A DNA stretch of 64,000 nucleotides from Casimicrobium huifangae (GTDB taxonomy: Bacteria; Pseudomonadota; Gammaproteobacteria; Burkholderiales; Casimicrobiaceae), in the NCBI RefSeq assembly GCF_009746125.1, contig NZ_CP041352.1, positions 1,019,847-1,083,846 of the forward strand, given 5' to 3'. Position 1 is the stretch's first letter. Each line of letters opens with the position of its first letter. Shown piece by piece: positions 3,383 to 63,247 of the stretch. The translations under genes and the position numbers were made by a program. The notes below the pieces were generated by a model. It saw only the letters and a list, made by a program, of their open reading frames with translations, was not told the origin of the DNA and made no database searches.

Positions 3383-3451
3383 TTTCGACGCAGCGGAACC
3401 CAGAGACAGCGCAGGCGAAGCGACGCTTGCGACGCGCAATATGGGCAATAA

Positions 3452-3561
3452 CTTTTCGCCGAAAAGCCCATCTACTAGGGGCTCGCGCCGTAAAATTACG
3501 AATGTCGCCTTTCAAACTTTCTCTTTCCCAAGCCGCATGCACAGGGATTTTCCGCAAAAAG
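3452..3561. repeat. dyad-symmetric dispersed element, copy A (degenerate)
   Basis: Order seen: CTTTT at 3452; first hairpin GCCCATCTACTAGGGGC at 3466-3482; 19 nt; ATGTCGCCTT at 3502-3511, which matches the AAGTCGACTT centre of other copies at 8 of 10 positions; 20 nt; second arm starting GCCG at 3532; and the mirrored end CCGCAAAAAG finishing at 3561. The midpoint of the whole element (3506.5) is exactly the midpoint of the central decamer. It is the most diverged of the six copies and lies between rpsQ and rplN. Confidence 0.65.
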
Positions 3562-3674
3562 TTAAGAGCCGCTGGCATGCTGGTAGTCGTTTTTGGCTTC
3601 CAGCGCAGTGGCTGCGCAGGTGAGGCAGAAGACGGTTTTCCACGGAGCACATGCCAAAAGATGTTCTCAGGTAG

Positions 3675-12614: not shown

Positions 12615-12633
12615 GTTGCTGTCGAAGTACTGG

Positions 12634-12745
12634 CTTTATGCTGAAAGCCGCATGCCATATGGGCTCAGCTTATAAAAGAGCGGACAGTCGACTTGGCCTC
12701 ATTTCGCCATCGAAACCCAGTGGATACGCCATTTGATCGACAAGG
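12634..12745. repeat. dyad-symmetric dispersed element, copy B
   Basis: CTTT at 12634; first hairpin GCCGCATGCCATATGGGC at 12647-12664; exactly 20 nt; CAGTCGACTT at 12685-12694; exactly 20 nt; second arm starting ACCC at 12715; mirrored end CAAGG near 12741-12745. It lies between the rplQ terminator and the stop of the convergent GlsB gene. The second arm is more degenerate than the first. Confidence 0.75.
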
Positions 12746-12751
12746 CTGCTA

Positions 12752-27845: not shown

Positions 27846-27878
27846 GAACCGAAACCACGATTGGAAGGAGGCAGCACC

Positions 27879-28319
27879 ATGTCCGAGCGAACCGTATTCC
27901 AGTCCATGTCCCGCAAGCATGTGGTGAGCCTCGGTGCCACCGCGACCGTGTGGGAGGCGGCCTGCCTGATGACCGGCGCCAACTGCGGTAGCGTGCTGAT
28001 CGTCGAGCCACCCGGCAAGCTGCTGGGCATCGTCACCGAGCGCGACCTGATGACCCGTGTGCTCGCCAAGGCCCTGCCGCCTGACCGCACGCTGGTCTCC
28101 GAAGTGATGACGCGCAACCCCTACTGCGTGACGCCGGAGACGCTGGTGTCGGATGCTGTGCTGATCATGATCGAGCGTGGCTTCCGGCATCTGCCCATCG
28201 TCGGCCCGGCGGCCAAGATTCTCGGTGTGTTCTCAGTGCGCGACGCGTTGCCGCGTGAGATTGGCGCCGCCGTGAGCATGGCCGAATTCAACGAACAAGT
28301 GAACGACGCACGGGGTTAG
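27879..28319 (+). CDS. CBS-domain protein
   Basis: A 146-residue protein made of a tandem CBS pair (Bateman module): VSLGATATVWEAACLM ... LLGIVTERDLMTRVL and VTPETLVSDAVLIMIERGFRHLPIVG ... ILGVFSVRDAL. Such modules bind adenine nucleotides or S-adenosyl compounds and regulate partners. I choose ATG 27879, since AAGGAGG lies at 27865-27871; an upstream TTG frame adds nothing. It follows korB, so it may sense energy state for that enzyme, which is inference. Confidence 0.88.
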   Translation: MSERTVFQSMSRKHVVSLGATATVWEAACLMTGANCGSVLIVEPPGKLLGIVTERDLMTRVLAKALPPDRTLVSEVMTRNPYCVTPETLVSDAVLIMIERGFRHLPIVGPAAKILGVFSVRDALPREIGAAVSMAEFNEQVNDARG

Positions 28320-28431
28320 CTTTTTGCTGAAACCCTTATTGGATAAGGGCTATGAAGTCATTTGCCGACGAAGTCGACTATTGGCAGAATCAGGCGTCTA
28401 GCCCCTTATAAGTAAGGCTTTCAACCGGAAG
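28320..28431. repeat. dyad-symmetric dispersed element, copy C
   Basis: CTTTTT at 28320; first hairpin CCCTTATTGGATAAGGGC at 28333-28350; exactly 20 nt; AAGTCGACTA at 28371-28380; exactly 20 nt; second hairpin from GCCCC at 28401 (CCTTATAAGTAAGG inside); mirrored end GGAAG near 28427-28431. It fills the whole gap between two convergent genes: it begins right after the CBS stop codon, and its last bases are the final codons of the ligase gene. Confidence 0.85.
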
Positions 28432-30340
28432 CTGATTCGTCCTGAGCCGTGACTGGCGCTGCGTCTGGCTCAGCCCTGGCCAGCAGCGCCCGCAGATCGG
28501 CAAGGCAATTGGCCTCATGCAGCGGTTTGTCGTCGCGGATTCGCAGCATGCGCGGGAAGCGTACGGCGACGCCGCTCTTGTGTCGCCGGCTTTCGGCAAT
28601 CCCCTCAAAGCCCAGCTCGAACACCAGAGCCGGCCGCACCGCGCGCACCGGGCCAAAGCGGTTCAGCGTGGTTTTGCGGATCACGGCGTCAACGCGCTTG
28701 AACTCCTCGTCAGTCAGGCCGGAATAGGCTTTGGCAAATGGCACCAGCATCGGCAGTGCACTGGCACCGCGCGGTGCGATATTTGCCGTAGCCTTGTCTG
28801 GCCCCTGCCCGGCATCAGTGTCTTCGCCGTCGCTCGCCGCGCCGGCACCACCCTTCGTCGCTGCCTGCGCGACCAGCGCGTCTATCGCTGCCGCCGCTTC
28901 TGCACCATCGCGTGGTGGCTGCGACCACACCGCAAAGGTGTAGTCGGTGTACAGACTAGCCCGTCGTCCGTGTCCGGCCTGCGCGTAGACCAGCACGCAG
29001 TCCACGCTCATCGGGTCGATCTTCCACTTCCACCACACCCCGTCCGCCTTGGTGCGCCCGCTGCCGTAGGCCGCATCGCGCGCTTTCAGCATGAAGCCTT
29101 CGACGCCACGGCCCCGGCTCTGCTCGCGCAATTGGGCGAATTCCGCCCAGCTTGCGGCAGTCACCACCGGTGACAAGCCGATGCCGCTGGCGCCCGCTGC
29201 CGGCAAGGCGTCAATCGTCGCTTGCAGTCGCTCACGCCGGTCCGCCTGCCCGCGAGTGCGAACGTCGATTCCGTCCGCCTCCAGTACGTCATAGGCGAGA
29301 AAGCGCACCGGGGCGTCGGCCAGCACCTTCTTGCTCAGCGTCTTGCGAGCGATGCGCGTCTGCAGCAGCGCAAACGGTGCCGGGCGATCATCGCGCCAGA
29401 CCAGAATTTCGCCGTCCAGCACGGTGCCGTCCGGCAGGTGTTCCGCTGCCGCGACCAGCTCGGGGAAGCGCTCGGTCACCAGCTCCTCGCCACGCGACCA
29501 GATGAAGGTTTGCCCACCACGCCGCACGATCTGCGCGCGGATGCCGTCGTATTTCCACTCCACCAGCCACCCGGTCACCGGGCCCAGTACGCGGTCAAAT
29601 TCCTCTGCGGCAATCTGCAGCGCATGCGCCAGGAAGAACGGATAGGGCTGGCCGGAGACGACCTTTGGCGTGTCGCCATCGCCCGCCGTCGCGGCGTCAT
29701 CCCGGCCGCTGCTTCCTTCTGCCCGCGCGGGTTCGATCAGCCGGAGAAAGCCCTCAGCCGAGGGCGCACGGGTGGCGTCCACATAGCCCATCATGCGCTC
29801 GGCGACCACCTTGGCATCGACGTCAGCGATCTCCGCCAGTGCACGCTGCACCAGCAGTTTGCTGACACCAACCCGAAAACCGCCACCGATTAGTTTGGTC
29901 AGCAGAAAGCGGCCACGCGCATCAAGGCTGGCCCAGCCCGCCAGCACCCGCTGTCGCCGCATCGTCTCGTCCATCGTGCGCAAGGGCAGCAGGCGCTCGG
30001 TGATCCACGTCGCGAGCCCGGACTCCGGCAACCTGTCCGCATCCGCGCTGGCAATCGGCAGTGCATCGGGCAGCACCAGCGCGATGGTTTCTGCGAGGTC
30101 CCCCACCGCCTGATAGCACTCCTCGAACAGCCAGTCCGGCAGCCCGGCGGCCTGTTGCGCCCAAGCGCGAAGCTCCGCTGTGCGGACGGTTTGTCGCGGT
30201 TTGCCACCGGCAAGGAAGTAGGCGGCCCAGGCGGCGTCGCTGGCGGGCGTTGCAGCAAAGTAGCTGCGCAACAGCGCCACCTTTTCGCTGGTGGCCGTGG
30301 TCGCGTCGAGCGCGTCGAACAGTTCGGCAAAGCGCTTCAT
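28421..30340 (-). CDS. ATP-dependent DNA ligase
   Basis: A 639-residue ligase with an N-terminal DNA-binding region, an adenylation domain whose nucleophile is K263 in EWKYDGIRAQ, the motif GEILVW (motif III region), GVEGFMLK (motif IV) and KWKIDP (motif V), then an OB domain ending in RFPRMLRIRDDKP. It matches the bacterial ligase type encoded with an MBL-fold exonuclease in a repair cluster. Its start overlaps the exonuclease stop by 4 bases. Two poorly conserved inserts (residues about 206-229 and 500-530) are low-complexity. Confidence 0.93.
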   Translation of the reverse strand: MKRFAELFDALDATTATSEKVALLRSYFAATPASDAAWAAYFLAGGKPRQTVRTAELRAWAQQAAGLPDWLFEECYQAVGDLAETIALVLPDALPIASADADRLPESGLATWITERLLPLRTMDETMRRQRVLAGWASLDARGRFLLTKLIGGGFRVGVSKLLVQRALAEIADVDAKVVAERMMGYVDATRAPSAEGFLRLIEPARAEGSSGRDDAATAGDGDTPKVVSGQPYPFFLAHALQIAAEEFDRVLGPVTGWLVEWKYDGIRAQIVRRGGQTFIWSRGEELVTERFPELVAAAEHLPDGTVLDGEILVWRDDRPAPFALLQTRIARKTLSKKVLADAPVRFLAYDVLEADGIDVRTRGQADRRERLQATIDALPAAGASGIGLSPVVTAASWAEFAQLREQSRGRGVEGFMLKARDAAYGSGRTKADGVWWKWKIDPMSVDCVLVYAQAGHGRRASLYTDYTFAVWSQPPRDGAEAAAAIDALVAQAATKGGAGAASDGEDTDAGQGPDKATANIAPRGASALPMLVPFAKAYSGLTDEEFKRVDAVIRKTTLNRFGPVRAVRPALVFELGFEGIAESRRHKSGVAVRFPRMLRIRDDKPLHEANCLADLRALLARAEPDAAPVTAQDESASG

Positions 30341-38064: not shown

Positions 38065-38079
38065 TCTGCCGGCCAGCAG

Positions 38080-38191
38080 CTTTAGTTGAAGAAGCCCATT
38101 GGATATGGGCGAAAGATCAAAAAACGGCTCAAGTCGACTTGAGCCGTTTTTATTTGCCGAGCCCAATGCGGTCAATGGTTTCGGTAAAAAG
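38080..38191. repeat. dyad-symmetric dispersed element, copy D
   Basis: CTTT at 38080; hairpin GCCCATTGGATATGGGC at 38094-38110; exactly 20 nt; AAGTCGACTT at 38131-38140; exactly 20 nt; second arm from GCCC at 38161; mirrored end AAAAAG at 38186-38191. Copy D is unusual because its centre is extended into a perfect 32-bp palindrome, 38120-38151, with A and T runs at the ends. It lies between the binding-protein gene and the cytochrome gene, both on the plus strand. Confidence 0.88.
38120..38151. terminator. bidirectional terminator-like palindrome in repeat copy D
   Basis: A perfect 32-bp palindrome: five A, CGGCTC, the repeat core AAGTCGACTT, GAGCCG and five T. A GC-rich stem with a T-run on either strand, 56 bases after the binding-protein stop, fits an intrinsic terminator. 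Confidence 0.7.
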
Positions 38192-38353
38192 CCAATACGA
38201 TCGTAGCAACGAATGAGCCGCTTTTGCGAAGCGTGCGCTACTACCTCCATCCCGTAAGGAATTTCGCGGCATTTATCGCCCGATTGTTGGCAACTCGCGT
38301 ATTGCGCCGTACAGTCCGCCCTTACGAAAACATCAAGACCGTTAGGGGTAGAC

Positions 38354-39253
38354 ATGAAAACCTGGATCAAGTGGACGGCCGGCGTGGTCGGCGTCCTTGT
38401 TGTCGCTGCGGCCGCAGCAGCCATCGTTGGCACCCAGCTTGCTGAGCGCAAACGCAACCGCGTCATCGACATCAAGGTGAAGGCGGTCGCCATTCCGAGC
38501 GATGCTGCGGCCATCGAACGCGGGCGTTACCTGTACGCATCACGCGGCTGCGCCGATTGCCACGGCGCCAATGGCGCGGGCCGGGCGTTCATCGACAACG
38601 GTGACATGAAAGTTGCCGGCCCCAATATCAGCCCGGGGCCGGGCAATGTCGTGGCCAGCTACAAGCCGGAAGACTGGGTACGCACGTTACGCCACGGTGT
38701 AAAGCCGGATGGCAAACCGCTGTTCATCATGCCCAGTGAAGACTACAACCGCTTGACCGATGACGATACCGGCGCGCTGATCGCCTATGTCAAGAGCCTG
38801 GCACCAGTGCCGGGCGGTGAGGCCGTGGTGAAGCTTCCGCTACCGGTGAGGGTGATCTATGGTTTCGGTGGCATTCCGGAGCCGGTGGAGAAGATCGACC
38901 ACAGCCTGCCGCCCTCGCAGCCAGTTGCGGCCGCGTTGAGTGTGGAGCACGGCAAATACGTGGCTGCCATGTGCATCGGATGCCATGGCGCCACGCTCTC
39001 CGGCGGCAAGATTCCTGGTGGGCCACCGGATTGGCCGGCAGCTGCCAACATTACGCCGGGCGACAAGAGCGTTATGCCTGCATACAAGGACGCGACCACT
39101 TTCGCGACGATGATGAAGACCGGCAAACGCCCTGATGGCAGCGCAATCAAAGTGATGCCGTTCGAATCGCTGCGCGAGATGAACGAGATCGATGTGCAGG
39201 CGCTGTACGCCTATCTGAAGACTGTGCCGGCGAAGCCGTTCGGGCAGCGCTGA
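38354..39253 (+). CDS. di-haem c-type cytochrome
   Basis: A 299-residue secreted or membrane-anchored cytochrome with an N-terminal hydrophobic helix (residues about 7-25). It has two CXXCH haem sites: CADCH near residue 71 and CIGCH near residue 213. Distal Met ligands are likely in FIMPSEDY and KVMPFESL, which are typical of this class. It resembles the cytochrome c subunit of alcohol/aldehyde dehydrogenase complexes in part but is shorter (two haems rather than three). Its partner is unknown; no dehydrogenase adjoins it. Confidence 0.9.
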   Translation: MKTWIKWTAGVVGVLVVAAAAAAIVGTQLAERKRNRVIDIKVKAVAIPSDAAAIERGRYLYASRGCADCHGANGAGRAFIDNGDMKVAGPNISPGPGNVVASYKPEDWVRTLRHGVKPDGKPLFIMPSEDYNRLTDDDTGALIAYVKSLAPVPGGEAVVKLPLPVRVIYGFGGIPEPVEKIDHSLPPSQPVAAALSVEHGKYVAAMCIGCHGATLSGGKIPGGPPDWPAAANITPGDKSVMPAYKDATTFATMMKTGKRPDGSAIKVMPFESLREMNEIDVQALYAYLKTVPAKPFGQR

Positions 39254-46274: not shown

Positions 46275-46370
46275 CCCCGAAGCGTAGCAGCGCACACCGC
46301 GCTTGATTGGAGCGGCTGCTTGAGTCGCGCCGCGTCAAAACCTTTAGTTGTTACTACAGGTACGCATCGG

Positions 46371-46482
46371 CTTTTTTGTCAAGGCCTTATTGCTATTGGG
46401 CACACGGTCGAAAAGTGCAGTAAGTCGACTTCTGGATGAATGTCATGCTAAGCCCAACTGTAATGCGGGTCTAGATGAAAAG
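46371..46482. repeat. dyad-symmetric dispersed element, copy E
   Basis: CTTTTTT at 46371; hairpin GCCTTATTGCTATTGGGC at 46384-46401; exactly 20 nt; AAGTCGACTT at 46422-46431; exactly 20 nt; second arm GCCCAACTGTAATGCGGGT from 46452; mirrored end AAAAG at 46478-46482. The geometric centre (46426.5) is the centre of the palindrome. Confidence 0.88.
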
Positions 46483-46552
46483 ATGAAAAGCCCGGCCCCC
46501 AGTCCTGTCGATCACCGAAAGTCATTGCGAATCACGTAAAAATTCTGTAATC

Positions 46553-62626: not shown

Positions 62627-63247
62627 CAGTGTCTCCTCTCAAGAGTGTGTCCGTTCAGACGTGGATGCGTGCAGCGCGCGGCGATGCCGATGACGCTGCG
62701 GCGTCTGAATGCCCCGACCTCCTCCCCCGAAGCTGCGTGCGAGCGATGCTCGTGCCAGCACACACAAAGTGCAGAGTATTCAATGATCTATGACGACGTC
62801 ATTGGCCGAGAGTTCGGCGAAAGCGGCGGATTTCTTGTCCGGGCTGTCACCCGTTGGCGACCGCTGACCTGCCGCTTCTCGTTAAGTAATTGATTGCTAA
62901 AGAGATTTCATGTCTCCGATGGCAGACAGCGATCACTGCGGTGACGATTAGTTTCAGATCATCTTTTCTCGGGAAGCCTCATTTGAATTGGGCTTTAAGG
63001 CAGATTTATCATGAAGTCGACTTACAAAAGAAATTAGGTGTAAGCCCAATTGGAATAGGGCTCTTGCTAAAAAGGTGATCCTCTGAATCATGGGAAAGTG
63101 CTCGGTGCAGACGCCTTGATTCGGGCAGCCTTATCCGCTTCGTCGCCGGTTCTCGCGGCTCGTCGCGCGCCGGTTTCGACGCCGCGGCGCTCGACTTAGC
63201 ATCCCGACATCGCGTGGCTCAGTGCCGCATTCCAGGAGTCGATTGGC
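62627..63247. other. 621-base intergenic region
   Basis: No gene is supported. The frames on both strands lack family features. The stretch contains dispersed repeat copy F (62963-63074) and GTCACC-like short hairpins near 62930. AGGAG at 63234-63238 is the ribosome site of the next gene. Confidence 0.6.
62963..63074. repeat. dyad-symmetric dispersed element, copy F
   Basis: CTTTT at 62963; hairpin GCCTCATTTGAATTGGGC at 62976-62993; exactly 20 nt; AAGTCGACTT at 63014-63023; exactly 20 nt; second hairpin GCCCAATTGGAATAGGGC at 63044-63061; mirrored end AAAAAG at 63069-63074. Here the two inner half-arms also pair with each other (AATTGGGCTT near 62987 with AAGCCCAATT near 63042), so one large hairpin is an alternative to two small ones. 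It is the clearest copy. Confidence 0.9.

Follow-up and report, generated by a model that had tools for sequence, protein, structure and literature searches.

A dyad-symmetric intergenic element, repeated hundreds of times in the Casimicrobium huifangae chromosome, looks like a chromosome-organising site

The 4.47-Mb chromosome of Casimicrobium huifangae carries an estimated 360–410 copies of an intergenic, dyad-symmetric element of about 120 bp (112–124 bp). Its existence as a repeated element is confirmed here, and it appears to belong to a so far undescribed system of chromosome organisation and not to be mobile DNA. The bounds of the estimate are extrapolated from 43 copies in 464 kb (~410) and from 42 copies in a contiguous 523 kb (~360) of the genome (hereafter G000), which is a single contig of 4,465,898 bp. 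Judging by the patterns of sequence described below, we lean towards the view that the element is a host chromosome-organising site, at which a putative DNA-wrapping protein would dock.

Six copies are located within the window, the stretch of 64,000 nucleotides that was analysed (coordinates refer to the window, and the symmetric copies are given without a strand). Copy A (3448–3564; profile E 2e-10) is of the 110-bp form, with each outer part positioned one base inwards (shift +1/−1). The centre of copy B (12631–12749; 7e-9) lies 124 bp beyond the end of the match to rplQ, encoding ribosomal protein L17 (12164–12568, forward strand; PF01196, 5.6e-37), and copy C (28317–28436; 4e-17) lies 3′ of a CBS-domain protein gene (27861–28319, forward strand; PF00571); both genes flank loci that were footprinted across species. 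Copy D (38075–38196; 4e-13) is followed by copy E (46366–46487; 1e-14), which resides within a divergent gap, and by copy F (62958–63079; 4e-23), the site under which the element had been reported in a sequence-only reading of this DNA. The profile used sequence only and was trained on 68 copies from seven species, namely those of the 72 highest-scoring per-species copies that were unshifted in one locus; of the window copies, only copy F was a training sequence. It detects all six copies on both strands, with E values from 4e-23 to 2e-8, and finds nothing beyond them in the window up to E 1.

The sequence-only reading described six sites with a common layout and a shared midpoint, and all six were found where it had placed them. 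The midpoint position holds in each, but the central decamer AAGTCGACTT that was assigned to it is exact in only three of the six copies (38131, 46422 and 63014, the last being the core dyad of copy F at 63014–63023). Those at 12634 and 28320 depart from it by a single base each and retain GTCGAC, and copy A reads GTCGCC. Likewise, the proposed CTTTT and AAAAG ends are present but variable (CTTTA, GGAAG, CAAGG), and the conservation of the ends reaches 3–5 bases further, as CAGCTTTT...AAAAGCTG. We note that the centre of copy D (38119–38151) is also a perfect inverted repeat between A and T runs, resembling a bidirectional terminator, and that similar centres occur in G306:C41 and at G000:835439.

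Beside the central dyad, local dyads are located near ±34 bp. The half-site consensus reads approximately WW-CAGCTTTT-n4-GAAA-n-CCnCATT-nn-AWWW-GGGCT-n9-AWWt-n6-AAAGTC and is mirrored at the centre. In a column profile of 63 copies (41 unbiased, the rest found by pattern), nearly fixed columns are interleaved with free ones; columns −14 and −13 are A/T in 100% and 97% of half-sites, respectively, with A and T about equally frequent. The conserved geometry that was proposed in place of a conserved sequence is present, but the sequence is also conserved, with ~75 bits over 124 columns (42 columns exceed 0.8 bit and 40 are nearly free) compared with the ~13 bits needed for marking 400 places. The A/T blocks recur approximately every 9.75 bp and, within the range of 8.75–12 bp, the best half-site period is 9.6–10.1 bp in eight species (bootstrap), 10.75 bp being weaker in each. 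Tested against block shuffles, the period band yields p values of 0.021 in G000, <0.0005 in G307, 0.004 in G312 and 0.004 in G309. Outside of this range, a period of 8.0 bp slightly outscores 9.75 bp in the G000 half-site; the G000 arms alone have their strongest period at 7.5 bp, and the arms of G083 fit 10.25–10.75 bp.

The dyad is a property of the shared sequence and not of a fold, because complementarity between the left and right halves within one copy does not exceed that between halves drawn from separate copies (z −1.6 to 2.0). The arms had been interpreted as hairpins, and the consensus does have a local dyad there. It is centred on −34 in six of the eight species and fits marginally better at −34.5 in G000 and G313. 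Covariation among the copies, however, is lacking (550 complementary cells versus 558 expected), and arm covariation at dyad −34 was absent in all eight species (z −0.4 to 2.4). Thus, the compensatory changes looked for in the whole element and in the arms were found in neither, which rules out a paired-hairpin or RNA model and indicates that the element, as judged from covariation, is a DNA site rather than an RNA or a hairpin. The earlier option of a structured RNA is similarly opposed by the absence of mirror pairing within copies. A search of the window against Rfam returned 0 gathering-level matches to a described structured-RNA family.

Copies beyond chance, by which the first report of the six sites could be checked, are present throughout the genome. 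The decamer AAGTCGACTT occurs 101 times in G000, compared with twice for the reversed pattern, and the spaced pattern CTTT-N47-AAGTCGACTT-N47-AAAG, with ≤3 mismatches, occurs 195 times compared with once. The 43 copies in 464 kb (the window and 20 stretches of 20 kb) were found with a symmetric position matrix made from 30 copies, the outer parts of which were allowed shifts of ±2. They include the six copies of the window, and the reversed sequence of the same 464 kb yielded 0 copies.

Of 17 genomes in the genus, the profile matches 16 at a threshold of E 0.001, including nine that were untrained, and it matches 0 of 47 genomes from other genera of the same family. Under strict candidate filters, and with one place being able to match on both strands, at least 55 matches were found in 14 genomes, 54 in G198, 21 in G125 and 0 in G258. 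The latter two, whose genomes are the smallest in the genus at 2.5 and 2.6 Mb, have few or no elements, as though genome reduction had been accompanied by decay of the system. An exact core pattern, applied to a collection of 84,980 species that may omit the genome of the window itself, identified 93 stretches in five assemblies. Four of these (JAFEDD, JAPUER, JANXNO and CALDYQ) are Burkholderiales or Proteobacteria metagenome assemblies; the fifth, JALGYY, has a single core-pattern match with no matrix score, which was taken as chance. Among 399 genomes of the order outside the genus, matches to CAGCTTT...AAAGCTG were at control level (≤5 versus ≤7 in controls), and the five in G421 and four in G117 were judged from their spelling to be chance. 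One exact-pattern scan of IMG/VR gave 0 matches. On the sequence matches obtained, the element family is confined to one genus within its family in the genomes searched.

Each species has its own dialect of the element. The spacing of G312 is that of a 110-bp geometry, with one base fewer per side, and is likewise shorter in G310; G307 has arms of the form AACGACC..GGTCGTT, and G309 has the tight arms GCATCCATAACGGGCTTG. G163 has a TTTTNNAAAA core, G083 combines GCCCAATTTAATTGGGC arms with a TCGA core, and the core of G198 also differs from that of G000. The impression from a strict pattern that many members of the genus are devoid of the element was an artefact of dialect, since the pattern misses the shorter spacing of G310 and G312, the arms of G307 and the cores of G163, G083 and G198. 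Indeed, an iterative procedure identified 29 copies in G083 and 13 in G198, compared with 0 in each when the whole procedure was run on the reversed sequence.

The element resides almost without exception between genes. The gene calls were made with a simple caller trained on G000 and are poor in G083, G198 and G163 (coding 0.57, 0.37 and 0.61), so that spacing tests are weak in these three genomes. The centre lies between called genes for all 43 matrix-found copies of G000, as well as for 27/27 copies in G313, 16/16 in G312, 10/10 in G309 and 8/8 in G307:C1, and copies within called genes were encountered only in the poorly called G083 (1/26) and G198 (2/13). The comparison of intergenic with genic hits, suggested alongside the original six sites, thus came out entirely intergenic for the 42 copies in 523 kb of G000. 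Among the gaps of 90–3000 bp within this stretch, the element is present in 11 of the 30 convergent, 19 of the 138 co-directional and 12 of the 59 divergent ones, a convergent excess (11/30 versus 31/197 in the others) with a p value of 0.009. In G000, the element centre has a median distance of 100 bp to flanking 3′ ends and 229 bp to 5′ ends.

The copies are also spaced more evenly than expected. In the 523 kb of G000, the mean interval is 11.9 kb and the minimum 3.57 kb, with a coefficient of variation (CV) of 0.55 compared with 0.92 when eligible gaps are drawn randomly at the observed rates per gap class (0 of 5000 draws as extreme), and with 0 intervals below 3 kb where 8.2 were expected. 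Similarly, the 27 copies in 359 kb of G313 have a CV of 0.51 versus 0.88 (p 0.0004), with 0 intervals below 3 kb versus 4.5 expected (p 0.004). Among 135 places in G000 taken from the pattern searches, a subset of all copies from which place 2569063 and the decamer places were left out, the minimum interval is 3160 bp, and 0 fall below 3 kb versus 11.0 expected after jitter. The remaining species are mixed: G307 has a p value of 0.02 from only eight copies, G312 is borderline (p 0.06) with one pair 1.6 kb apart, G083 has 0 intervals below 2 kb versus 4.7 expected (p 0.004) with a CV that is not significant, and no regularity was detected in G198, in G163 or in G309 (p 0.59), the last of which has one pair 1.2 kb apart. 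In one sampled stretch of G000 (L036), a weak copy lies 1.1 kb from another. The largest element-free interval in the 523 kb spans 36 kb (L182–L183, G000:C1:1103024–1138993) and contains apparent core housekeeping genes, among which a protease/chaperone cluster was recognised by eye; with a GC content near the average (0.607 versus 0.621), it bears no obvious mark of an island gained by horizontal transfer.

Copies are retained at orthologous places in many species. With a footprint matrix pooled from seven species, an element was found 3′ of rplQ in 12 of the 15 genomes in which rplQ was found (11 besides G000), and in none of G306, G125 and G258. The centre lies 124–143 bp beyond the matched stretch, or 191 bp in G163, and the scores range from 28 to 74, compared with a highest reversed-sequence score of 11.5, with 10 of the 12 copies being outside the training set. 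The weakest copy, that of G198 (28), scores little more than the 26 reached off-target by a terminator-like sequence next to the copy of G310. At the CBS-gene locus, all eight close orthologs (seven besides G000) have an element, with scores of 49–87 versus ≤15 for reversed sequence. At both loci the copies are spelled in the dialect of each species. Orthologs of copy E were found in G313, G307, G312, G310 and G311, and that of copy F in G312. Copy D has an ortholog in G312 and a weak counterpart in G311, and none was found in G313, G307, G309 and G310. In the search for empty sites at orthologous loci, the place at 38080 thus lacks the element in these four genomes, but the divergence there is too great for the ends of a clean empty site to be read.

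Gap-by-gap comparison supports this retention for two of three species. For gaps matched by both flanks (G163 not included), G000 and G307 share two occupied gaps, with none occupied in G000 only, one in G307 only and 22 in neither (p 0.01); G000 and G312 share two, with no discordant gap and eight in neither (p 0.02); and for G309 0 of 9 gaps are occupied. Counts from one flank, which cover 80 of 93 named loci and in which one element may count at both flanking genes, agree for G307 and G312 and are weak for G309, with 1/3 and 0/2 gene-end positions shared. Across eight hand-picked ortholog pairs, taken in the better of two orientations, identity is 0.79 in motif columns and 0.37 in free columns, compared with 0.75 and 0.29 for paralogs, and the vertical signal in free columns is therefore weak, orthologs being little above paralogs. 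The 74 G000 copies compared with one another behave as independent sequences in the 40 free columns (mean identity 0.286, SD 0.072 versus 0.071 for a binomial). The closest of 5402 comparisons matches in 24 of 40 free columns, a level that chance can give (0.18 expected), so that no recent duplicates are seen; full-length identity averages 0.49 and has a maximum of 0.68.

A fixed geometry with changing spelling and phased A/T blocks, together with consensus dyads that do not pair and copies that are kept in place, argues for a symmetric protein–DNA complex over ~120 bp, and the even spacing and near-absence of close neighbours in G000 and G313 suggest that the sites act over a distance along the chromosome. 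The favoured docking site would be occupied by a putative multimeric, genus-specific DNA-binding protein that wraps or bends the whole site symmetrically, with shifts in its specificity driving the dialects and with even spacing reflecting selection to keep a single site in each stretch of the chromosome. The sites would then most likely serve supercoil domains as anchors or barriers, or contribute to the architecture of the nucleoid in another way; the protein, its wrapping of the site and a role in architecture are all inferred. Among the options named in the sequence-only reading, it is the multi-site binding element that gains support. Counting against a docking site, ~75 bits far exceeds ~13 bits, and a simple binding site would not need them; G309 has irregular spacing and few positions shared with G000, and no copy D was found in four relatives. 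Palindromic sites of architectural proteins, such as matS for MatP and parS for ParB, are 13–16 bp long and regional, whereas the candidate docking site is ~120 bp long and has near 400 copies genome-wide. A bolder version, which we regard as possible but doubtful, is a genus-specific chromatin scaffold of ~400 regularly spaced nucleosome-like particles, in each of which a protein would wrap ~120 bp symmetrically, the whole delimiting ~12-kb domains. In such a scaffold, the A/T blocks near ±5, 14, 24, 31–37, 45 and 54, with a period below 10.5 bp, would lie in the minor groove, and the protein and its sites would co-evolve, the sites of a species following each new dialect.

At strong DNA gyrase sites, like those of BIME-2 or the Mu SGS, the enzyme wraps ~130 bp with a cleavage at the centre and, if acting here, would absorb positive supercoils at gene ends. 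According to one source (PMC6379681), the E. coli gyrase motif is symmetric over 130 bp, with two 47-bp arms of period 10.75 bp separated by a centre of 36 bp (a further source on the motif is PMC12393610). The resemblance to gyrase sites, as known from E. coli Topo-Seq and Mu SGS, extends to a length of ~120–130 bp, symmetry, helix-phased A/T blocks and proximity to gene ends, the last seen in the convergent excess, the nearness to 3′ ends and the copy 3′ of rplQ; moreover, in G083 no period close to 10.75 bp suits the arms better than 10.75 bp itself. Compared with the 10.75 bp of that source, however, the half-site period of 9.6–10.1 bp in eight species and the 7.5 bp of the G000 arms are shorter, although arms of 44 bp give too little resolution for gyrase to be excluded by period alone. 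Gyrase occurs universally and recognises a degenerate GC phasing, whereas many bases are nearly fixed here and change by species, in one genus only, with 0 of 47 sister-genus genomes matching the profile. The fit to the gyrase motif therefore appears poor, and we regard gyrase sites as unlikely. Bidirectional terminators or 3′-UTR RNA elements seem very improbable: a preference for gene 3′ ends, the perfect repeat with A/T runs at the centre of copy D and a terminator-like hairpin in an arm of one copy (L044/L127) would suit them, but 12 of 42 G000 copies are in divergent gaps, the G000 rplQ copy lies past a separate, terminator-like GCCGGG/CCCGGC-T repeat and covariation of pairs is absent. 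This bears out the earlier judgement that a plain terminator role is inadequate.

An old non-autonomous transposable element, MITE- or REPIN-like and moved by a transposase with target immunity, is improbable as well. Immunity would set the minimum spacing and host-safe gaps would explain the intergenic location, and the high copy number, the restriction to one genus within the family, the terminal inverted repeats (CAGCTTTT/AAAAGCTG) expected of a MITE and the Y1_Tnp genes in 15 of 17 genomes of the genus are all consistent with it. However, the copies lack a target-site duplication (|z| ≤2.2 at the five boundaries tried in 69 copies) and near-identical relatives (the maximum of 0.68 among 74 copies), stand at orthologous places in many species and carry the dialect of each species at shared places; duplicates missing together with such dialects sit badly with a target-immune transposon, and even spacing in G000 and G313 further opposes the mobile element proposed earlier. 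REP/BIME sequences are hundreds of intergenic, species-specific palindromic units with inverted arms around a spacer and a 3′-end preference, and the element resembles them, and REPINs with their RAYT (TnpA-REP), in its hundreds of intergenic copies, two inverted arms with a spacer and 3′-end preference. It differs from REPINs in that the centre and ends are conserved besides the arms, the arms do not covary, the copies fall short of near-identity and occupy orthologous positions, their spacing is even in two species, and no element flanks the Y1_Tnp genes examined. Indeed, no element lies within the 4-kb regions of five such genes (three of the four in G000, one in G313 and one in G309), and G125 has elements and no Y1_Tnp match. 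REPIN/BIME, which had also been considered, was accordingly rejected on arm pairing, RAYT association and near-identity. The MITEs ERIC, Correia and CIR are imperfect palindromes of ~100–130 bp in intergenic regions, alike in length, palindromy and location, but the element lacks target-site duplications and recent copies, has been retained in place from species to species and is evenly spaced; a MITE was rejected on the first two points. Uptake sequences (DUS/USS), which are ~10 bp long, genome-wide and evenly spaced with clade dialects, suggest instead a self-recognition or transfer signal, of uptake or packaging type and spread by molecular drive, in which a fragment-length scale would even the spacing and dialects would follow the receptor. 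The even spacing, dialects and intergenic location are in line with such a signal, but the element is a 120-bp composite of fixed geometry, far longer than known uptake sequences, which are also far denser, and the IMG/VR scan gave no exact-pattern match, so that we hold this to be quite improbable.

No published family was recognised in the sequence-only reading, and likewise none was met here: the top-ranked matches of a literature search, with most subscription literature outside its coverage, contained no description of the element, and a decamer-based search returned no paper on it, as judged by title and abstract opening. A MITE review (PMC10969869) names CIR and ERIC and, in its accessible part, no family of this geometry was encountered.

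In the current view, supercoil domains of ~10 kb partition bacterial chromosomes, and we know of no fixed, evenly spaced sequences that form the boundaries of such domains. Should the sites prove to be such anchors, one could test directly how many domain boundaries there are, where they lie and how they evolve. Even with another function, they amount to ~400 sites fixed in place, geometry and spacing with a spelling that varies by species, and would represent an unusual instance of a DNA site and a putative factor co-evolving in concert.

Two further observations concern individual copies. In the orthologous pair formed by the copy at L044 (14484–14595) and that at L127, one arm is nearly identical between the two species and is a terminator-like GCCCCGC..GCGGGGC-TTTT hairpin, which shows descent of that copy. 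In addition, the ATP-dependent DNA ligase gene beyond copy C (28421–30340) and the cytochrome c gene beyond copy D (38354–39253) are missing at these positions in several relatives, placing the elements at edges of gene gain or loss.
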